From Acidobacteriota bacterium (GTDB lineage: Bacteria > Acidobacteriota > UBA890), in contig PCAP01000067.1 in the NCBI GenBank assembly GCA_002731215.1, forward strand, positions 1 through 38,709: a stretch of DNA of 38,709 bases, given 5' to 3'. How positions within the stretch are numbered: the stretch's first letter is position 1; every line of letters begins with the position of its first letter. Under the pieces are notes generated by a model that saw nothing but the letters and a program-made list of their open reading frames with translations, did not search any database and was not told the origin of the DNA. The position numbers and the translations under genes were made by a program. Of this stretch, positions 33,485-36,540 are shown piece after piece.

Positions 33485-34039
33485 ATGGCTACGAGAGCTA
33501 AACCTAAGGATGATCGCTACAGGCTACCGGCCGCGGCTGAGCGCCGTAGTCGCAAGCTTGCCGAAGAACGCTTTGGTCGTTACCTCAGCGAGCATGACCT
33601 GAAGCTGACACCGGAACGCCGGGAGATTCTCCAGGAGTTCTATCGTATCCACGAACACATCGAAGCTGACGAACTGATGTTTCATTTGCGCCGTGCTGGA
33701 GTGCGGGTGTCGCGCGCCACAATCTATCGGACGCTTGATCTTCTAGTGCAAGCGGGGTTAGCACGCCGTATCAGCCTGGGCAAGGATCACTCTTATTACG
33801 AACACATTCTCGGCCGTGAAGCACACGAGCACATGGTTTGCCTCGGTTGCGATCGCATCATCGAATGGCTGGACGCGGAGCTTACCCGATTGGTATTCCG
33901 TAACTGTGCTGAGCAAAGCTTCTCGCCCGCTCGCCACAGCTTGCAGGTGTTCGGCTATTGTCAGGATTGTTCCAAGACCAGCGAAGCCCACAAGGCTCTC
34001 GAGTTGGGTGAAGATGCCAACCTGTCGTCCGGCGATTGA
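33485..34039 (+). CDS. Fur-family metal- or peroxide-responsive regulator
   Basis: A 184-residue transcription factor of the Fur/Zur/PerR family. The winged helix spans about 35-100, with Leu-Thr-Pro-Glu-Arg-Arg-Glu-Ile-Leu and recognition-helix sequence Val-Ser-Arg-Ala-Thr-Ile-Tyr-Arg-Thr-Leu. The structural zinc site is Cys119-x2-Cys122 plus Cys159-x2-Cys162, and His114/His116 in Glu-Ala-His-Glu-His are likely regulatory-metal ligands. Which metal it senses cannot be read from sequence. It has an extra basic N-terminal tail of about 30 residues. It overlaps thrC by TTGA, and an inverted repeat lies just upstream. Confidence 0.92.
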   Translation: MATRAKPKDDRYRLPAAAERRSRKLAEERFGRYLSEHDLKLTPERREILQEFYRIHEHIEADELMFHLRRAGVRVSRATIYRTLDLLVQAGLARRISLGKDHSYYEHILGREAHEHMVCLGCDRIIEWLDAELTRLVFRNCAEQSFSPARHSLQVFGYCQDCSKTSEAHKALELGEDANLSSGD

Positions 34040-35330: not shown

Positions 35331-36392
35331 TTGCATCGCTCTATGTGTGAGAAGCCAGCCAGCAACAATCTTAAACGGAGCTCGGCGATTCTGGTTGTGG
35401 CCATGTTCACCCTGGCTTGCCAAGATATGGACCGGCTTGAGCCAGACCCTATCGTTGTTGCTTCCGACTCCGATGGCCGGGGAACAATTCTCGGCACGAC
35501 GACAGCCCCCGACTACGGCAGTGGAGCACGGCTGACTGAAGAAATTGCTCAGCGAAGAGTCCGCGAGATTATGGGTGCTCGTGGCGAAGATCGCCTTGAG
35601 CTCGCGACCACGTTCCTCCGCGAATATCCGATGGCCAGAGTTATCGCGAAGCTCCACGAGCTGATGGGCGATGCTTACGCTGAACTTGCGGAGCCTGAAT
35701 TGGCGGCAGAAGCGTGGGAGAAGGCACTGGAGACATCCCAGCCACCAAACGACATTCTGGGCCTACCGCAAATGAACATAGATCTTCCTTATCAGATTGG
35801 CTGGGCTCACACTGAAGCTGGTAACCCGATAATCGGTGCGGAATGGCTTACTCGAGCGACTTTTATTAGTGACAGAGTGCAACTTGAGCAGGGCCTGCGA
35901 TTTGTCTACGCGGAGCTTGGCTCTCCAGGCGTTGGTTTTGATGAATGGTTTTCAACAAACCGACTAAATACTGCTGTGCAAGCCCCAGATTTCGAACTTC
36001 CCGGTTACGGTTTTGACTCTTTGCGGTTGTCGGATGTCGATGCGAGCCTCACGTTAATTAACTTTTGGACGCCGACGTGACCAGCCTGCCGTGAGGAGTT
36101 TCCTCACCTCGATGCTCTATACCGGGAGTTGAAAGACGATGGTTTTTCCGTCGTTGCCGTCGATGTGCGTGACGACCGGCCGGGCACGGACGCTTTCTAC
36201 AAGGAGTTCGGCTTCGAAATTCCTAACGTTTTTGACACCCAAAACATTGCGGTGGCTCGATATGGGGTTAGTGCAACACCAACGACCTACCTGGTTGATG
36301 AGGACGGTCGTATTCTTTGGCGGCGCTACGGATACTTGCCAGGTGAAGAAATTCGGCTAAGAGAGCAGGTCGAGGTTCTGTTGGACCATTGA
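35331..36392 (+). CDS. Selenocysteine-containing TlpA-like thioredoxin lipoprotein
   Basis: One frame runs 35331-36392 with a single in-frame TGA at 36078-36080, read here as selenocysteine 250. The protein (353 residues) has a lipobox Thr-Leu-Ala-Cys30, a TPR-like helical region (about 75-175), and a TlpA/ResA-type thioredoxin domain (about 220-353). The active site Asn-Phe-Trp-Thr-Pro-Thr-U250-Pro-Ala-Cys253-Arg-Glu-Glu-Phe aligns with the classical Asn-Phe-Trp-Ala-Thr-Trp-Cys-x-x-Cys-Arg, placing the TGA exactly on the nucleophilic cysteine. After the TGA the fold is intact, including the cis-Pro loop Ala-Thr-Pro-Thr-Thr-Tyr. A SECIS-like hairpin follows. It should act outside the inner membrane as a thiol-disulfide oxidoreductase. 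The TTG at 35331 has GGAG nine bases upstream; the ATG at 35343 is the alternative. A nonsense mutation or sequencing error is the rival reading. Confidence 0.85.
36078..36080 (+). other. In-frame TGA, predicted selenocysteine codon
   Basis: This TGA replaces the first Cys codon of the thioredoxin CxxC motif and is followed by C (TGAC), a stop context known to terminate weakly. The reading frame is unbroken on both sides and encodes conserved thioredoxin sequence. Confidence 0.82.
36091..36107 (+). promoter_or_regulatory. Bacterial SECIS-like stem-loop
   Basis: GTGAGGA (36091-36097), loop GTT (36098-36100) and TCCTCAC (36101-36107) form a perfect 7-bp hairpin. It starts 10 bases after the TGA, and its loop starts 17 bases after it. 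Bacterial SECIS elements lie inside the coding region directly downstream of the UGA, with a short apical loop carrying a G in its first positions, so both spacing and loop fit. SelB would bind it to deliver Sec-tRNA. A further AGC/GCT pairing (36083-36085 with 36114-36116) could form a lower stem. Confidence 0.75.
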
Positions 36393-36408
36393 GGAGAAAA
36401 CGCGGCAA

Positions 36409-36540
36409 GTGGACAAAGAAGTGGCCCGGGTGCTCGCCACGATTGGCCTGCCAACGAAAATCTCCGCTTCTCCTCCAGCTGTGTGCCTCGAGTGCCACTC
36501 TCGCCATTTCGCCCAGACCAGATGGGTAGCAAAACGATGA
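36409..36540 (+). CDS. Possible small protein with a CxxCH motif
   Basis: A 43-codon frame starting with GTG and ending in TGA that overlaps the next gene's ATG (ATGA at 36537-36540). GAGGAG at 36391-36396 is a strong ribosome site but sits 12 bases from the GTG. The peptide contains Ala-Val-Cys-Leu-Glu-Cys-His-Ser-Arg-His. CxxCH is the heme c attachment motif and could equally bind zinc. No signal peptide is visible, which argues against cytochrome c maturation. It lies between the selenoprotein and HEAT genes, a gap with no other convincing coding frame. It may be a real small gene, a coupling leader, or chance. Confidence 0.35.
   Translation: MDKEVARVLATIGLPTKISASPPAVCLECHSRHFAQTRWVAKR

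Follow-up and report, generated by a model that had tools for sequence, protein, structure and literature searches.

A TlpA-like lipoprotein gene of Acidobacteriota with an in-frame UGA that is very probably read as selenocysteine

Introduction

The question raised by positions 35331–36392 of the DNA analysed here is whether the gene lying there is broken or whether it encodes a selenoprotein. The whole stretch, hereafter the window, comprises 38,709 nucleotides of contig PCAP01000067.1 and belongs to an Acidobacteriota MAG of 1.22 Mb that is 72.6% complete. Because of an internal TGA the gene looks broken, and a selenoprotein of this kind would come out of standard gene callers in two pieces or cut short. 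An earlier note on this DNA, made from the letters alone, proposed that the TGA encodes selenocysteine (Sec) in the redox motif of a membrane-anchored, TlpA-like lipoprotein. We followed this proposal through the reading frame, the protein architecture, the orthologues, the RNA downstream of the UGA and the genes for Sec decoding.

Results

Reading frame and protein architecture

On translation, positions 35331–36392 of the forward strand form a single frame, of which the TGA at 36078–36080 is the sole interruption and the TGA at 36390–36392 the terminator, in agreement with the earlier note. The frame proposed there stands; as its start, ATG 35343 is preferred to TTG 35331 because it is common to both congeners. 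Delimited by the frame, the orthologues and Pfam, the gene (35343–36392) would, with the TGA as Sec, give a product of 349 aa in which a lipoprotein signal, a TPR-like helical region and a TlpA/ResA-like UxxC thioredoxin domain follow one another. Sec246 would hold the nucleophile position of the motif U-P-A-C, and the resolving Cys249 (36087–36089) lies in an invariant column. The placing of the TGA at a nucleophilic Cys was correct, as the U is matched to the leading Cys of CxxC when ResA and DsbE structures are aligned to it. Thioredoxin sequence, including the cis-Pro loop, does continue beyond the TGA: P313 (codon 36279–36281) is invariant, and with the TGA taken as Sec the Pfam matches to AhpC-TSA (2.5e-20, the best), Redoxin and Thioredoxin_8 span both of its sides.

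The predicted lipoprotein signal peptide (35343–35420) ends in the lipobox L-A-C, whose Cys26 (35418–35420) is invariant in the eight members of the order, which speaks for the membrane anchoring that had been claimed; a lipobox-like motif occurs in most of these members. The TPR-like region proposed for the N-terminal part also finds support. It covers residues 66–210 (35538–35972) and consists of eight helices, arranged in helical hairpins, in an AlphaFold model built with 8 sequences, where it reaches a pLDDT of mostly 86–97; the mean for the model is 81 and the N-terminus is of low confidence. By profile the window protein stays under the Pfam cut-off for TPR, and seven of the eight members give a weak TPR_2 match. 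The thioredoxin-fold domain (residues about 213–348; 35979–36386) is delimited by Pfam, TM-score and profile. Its target-normalised TM-score to ResA and DsbE chains is about 0.8–0.9 (Foldseek), and the profile search matches it to DsbE 3gl3 and to ResA. With its AhpC-TSA/Redoxin domain, redox pair and cis-Pro, the protein thus takes its place in the TlpA/ResA-like family.

Conservation of the UGA and selection around it

Among the eight closest relatives sampled at the level of the order (two congeners, two genomes of the same family and four of the same order), seven carry full-length orthologues with 35–90% identity, and each of these has one in-frame TGA at the identical codon; in G003 (83% complete), unlike the other seven, the orthologue was not found. 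Seven orthologues with exactly one TGA each, always at the same codon, argue that its presence is not due to chance. Since two of them come from different MAGs with public contigs (PBML01000032.1 and JADFNY010000376.1), a sequencing error is very improbable. Comparison with the two congeners by simple counting gives dN/dS estimates of 0.085 and 0.048 for the part downstream of the TGA (99 and 103 codons) and of 0.144 and 0.060 for the part upstream. Such strong purifying selection 3′ of the TGA (0.05–0.09) argues against a pseudogene. The close relatives therefore keep the TGA, and decay beyond it, which would have spoken against the earlier note, is not seen in the seven orthologues; a UGA kept in orthologues with both flanks under selection is what a bacterial selenoprotein would show.

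Searching 396 Acidobacteriota genomes by profile added ten further ones with TGA at this codon (G373, G155, G379, G293, G103, G163, G241, G257, G202 and G055); a second TGA match in G155, from which the motif was not recovered, was left out of the count. Together with the eight order members, the window gene included, these make up the 18 sequences used below. Cys-bearing homologues of the thioredoxin domain are common in the phylum, and in the alignment of TlpA homologues that had been suggested as a check, Cys occupies the U position in the more distant ones. In a tree of 40 domains, which is an uneven sample because its rows were picked by similarity to the window family, 17 of the 18 Sec rows cluster with moderate support (87/78) and that of G055 stands apart. 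A single origin of Sec is compatible with this tree, as are several. This G055 protein (L035), placed outside the main Sec group, is a TPR protein of considerable length whose thioredoxin domain has UGPC and whose gene has a similar hairpin.

The SECIS-like hairpin

Bacterial Sec insertion uses a SECIS near the UGA, as the earlier note stated, and a SECIS-like hairpin of the bacterial type with compensatory changes is present downstream at 36091–36107 (GUGAGG-AGUUU-CCUCAC, loop at 36097–36101), beginning 10 nt past the UGA. Its figures (loop AGUUU, 6 bp, 16 nt, and −11.2 over the 45 nt that follow the UGA) fall within the published bSECIS rules (PMC13188914). Over 48 nt from the UGA onward the 18 sequences can be aligned gap-free, with columns 14–19 pairing with 25–30. 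Of the 108 cells of this stem 107 are paired, the exception being a U-U at pair 14–30 in G241. Both sides have changed in pair 15–29 (U-A or C-G) and in pair 17–27 (A-U, U-A or C-G), and three pairs are uninformative because they never vary among the 18. The covariation score is 0.377. Shuffles, which do not keep the relatedness of the sequences, give 0.137, and slid controls, which do, never exceed 0.157; RNAalifold recovers the same six pairs. The loop opens with an A-G-U common to all 18 sequences (columns 20–22), has U in column 23 except for A in G257, and is variable in column 24. At each of the positions +4 to +9 (R-E-E-F-P-H) the eight genomes of the order share a single codon, and at each of −9, −8 and +21 they use four different codons for an unchanged residue. 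Folded as a single sequence, a stretch of 61 nt does not exceed its shuffles in stability (z 0.20), so the support for the hairpin comes from conservation and covariation.

At the gathering score nothing in the window was found by Rfam, and a scan by motif and hairpin of the other TGA-interrupted frames in the window yielded none that combined a UxxC-type motif with a hairpin of the matching kind. The MAG was also scanned with the SECIS pattern TGA-N14-GGAGTTNCC, the reversed pattern serving as control. The SECIS pattern matched two extra sites. The frame around the first runs for 2 codons ahead of it and 5 beyond, that around the second for 9 and 83, and both are taken as chance matches because the reversed control yielded two as well.

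Genes for Sec decoding

The search for sel genes, proposed as a check, was borne out in part. The MAG contains a tRNA-Sec with anticodon TCA, which at 70.5 bits lies above the gathering score, and a full-length selB of 634 aa (387 bits), but at its 72.6% completeness selA was not found and selD is represented by sub-cut-off matches only. Of the eight relatives, seven have a full-length selA above cut-off and all have selD above cut-off, so the gaps in the MAG are best read, though this is unproven, as a consequence of its incompleteness. A TGA in Sec-type context is also carried by one selD gene of each of five relatives, and these genes are independent evidence of Sec decoding in the lineage. 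The selD loci with in-frame TGA (L060, L061, L062, L067 and L068) have the context GUAAK or GUASK, and the hairpins after their TGA are unlike the A-G-U-[U/A]-N loop. In G004, which has the gene and is 81% complete, a tRNA-Sec match was not found. The ten further TGA genomes all have selB-like and tRNA-Sec matches, the selB-like match of G241 being below cut-off with an internal TAA. As selB is common across the phylum sample (27 of 30 Acidobacteriota genomes tested), its presence in the TGA genomes is supportive, not specific. Two selB matches above cut-off, of 387 and 283 bits, were observed in G202 (G202:C3:24786-26669 and G202:C19:227772-229676).

Discussion

Taken together, the sequence comparisons make us highly confident that the UGA at 36078–36080 is read as Sec and that the gene is an intact selenoprotein gene. 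Were the TGA instead a nonsense mutation or a base-call error followed by a decaying 3′ part, the missing selA and clear selD of the MAG would be in keeping with it; the codon, however, is kept in 18 sequences from many families, the part beyond it is under strong purifying selection and the SECIS-like hairpin is both conserved and covarying, and the chance of such a loss of function or error is negligible. Readthrough of the UGA, or its reassignment to Trp or Cys or suppression by a near-cognate tRNA, could appeal to the Cys of the distant homologues at this position. It is nevertheless very improbable, as TGA terminates this same gene and several of its orthologues, tRNA-Sec and SelB are encoded in the genome, the hairpin obeys the bSECIS rules, and the first position of CxxC is a usual Sec site in the table of PMC13188914.

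If the UGA is decoded as Sec, SelB with its Sec-tRNA would bind the hairpin and the 349-residue protein would be completed. The lipobox would then hold the protein at the membrane on its exported side, and the eight-helix TPR-like region would probably bind a partner or client. In the C-terminal domain Sec246 would attack a substrate disulfide as part of the redox pair U-P-A-C, Cys249 would resolve the mixed selenenyl-sulfide, and a DsbD/CcdA-type transporter would re-reduce what would most probably be a periplasmic disulfide reductase or isomerase. We infer the exported location, the redox direction, the client and the electron donor in this scheme, as well as Sec insertion itself. The electron path in particular is inferred because proteins with DsbD_TM are present in four of the eight relatives and none was found in the source MAG at its 72.6% completeness.

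The fold in the structural model and the motif make reduction of exported disulfides a reasonably probable role. The selenoprotein might instead be a Sec-based peroxidase serving oxidant defence, possibly linked to a Fur-family regulator, a role in favour of which it can be said that AhpC-TSA tops the Pfam matches and that a Fur-family gene is conserved directly upstream in G005, G006 and G007 (sister family) and lies two genes away in G002. This we consider unlikely, the site being a ResA/TlpA-like UxxC with a resolving Cys, as opposed to the TxxU of Sec peroxiredoxins (PMC13188914), and the nearest structures being disulfide reductases.

To what extent the protein is new can be judged against the 2026 inventory of prokaryotic selenoproteins (PMC13188914), which lists AhpC-TSA, cd02966 and redoxin domains that carry Sec in UxxC, and whose text does not mention lipoprotein, tetratricopeptide or Acidobacteria. 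The predicted Prx-like thiol:disulfide oxidoreductase of its table 1 (PF00578, UxxC) shares the AhpC-TSA/thioredoxin fold and the Sec nucleophile with our protein; compared by description only, it is defined by domain and motif in a table without the lipoprotein-TPR layout. Sec in a TlpA or redoxin active site is likewise found in the thiol-disulfide isomerase-like proteins (cd02966, UxxC), the Redoxin family (PF08534, UxxC) and the UGC-containing TlpA family of the same inventory, the last having the motif UGC in contrast to the UxxC seen here. The disulfide reductases ResA, DsbE and TlpA are similar in fold and in the position of the redox pair, but have Cys where the window protein would have Sec, and the matched structures comprise the thioredoxin domain without a TPR-like region. 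In NCBIfam the selenoprotein reached the cut-off of no model; the C-terminal domain weakly matches two Sec/Cys thioredoxin-fold families, the ResA-like NF041054 WAxxUGC_long (39.9 bits, cut-off 300) and NF053656 redoxin_TUGYCR (17.6, cut-off 100). The one Acidobacteriota genome tested in the deep-Sep paper gave, according to that paper, no new selenoprotein gene. A description of the lipoprotein-TPR-TlpA architecture was not found in the open-access literature, and an earlier one may exist under a generic name. Sec at the UxxC of TlpA/AhpC-type folds has been catalogued before (PMC13188914); what looks new is confined to the architecture, which the earlier note did not know as described, and to the lineage-specific subfamily.

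We tentatively propose, at slightly less than even chances, that these genes form a phylum-wide subfamily of membrane-anchored TPR-TlpA proteins, a Sec-only clade with a single SECIS class (A-G-U-[U/A]-N, G-C-closed), whose members would act as exported reductases and help to keep the Sec trait. The conserved selenoprotein subfamily belongs to a phylum that goes unnamed in the main text of the 2026 inventory. The covarying hairpin provides a natural series for probing the requirements of SelB, and the split between Sec and Cys among the homologues a test of what Sec contributes to exported disulfide chemistry.

Upstream of the selenoprotein gene the window contains a Fur-family regulator (33485–34039, two genes away) and a PALP enzyme. 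In the sister family three loci (G005, G006 and G007) were of sufficient length for the comparison, and a PALP match was not found in them. A HEAT-repeat/cyclophilin gene lies downstream in the window, as it does in G002 and G004. The ORF with CxxCH that follows the gene (36406–36537) was rejected as it is not conserved. Directly 3′ of the selenoprotein gene, a conserved non-coding block was observed at 36412–36480, for which there is no Rfam match of note; in a scan of seven genomes it was not detected in G003, G005 and G006, and it is present as a single copy in G000, G001, G002 and G004.
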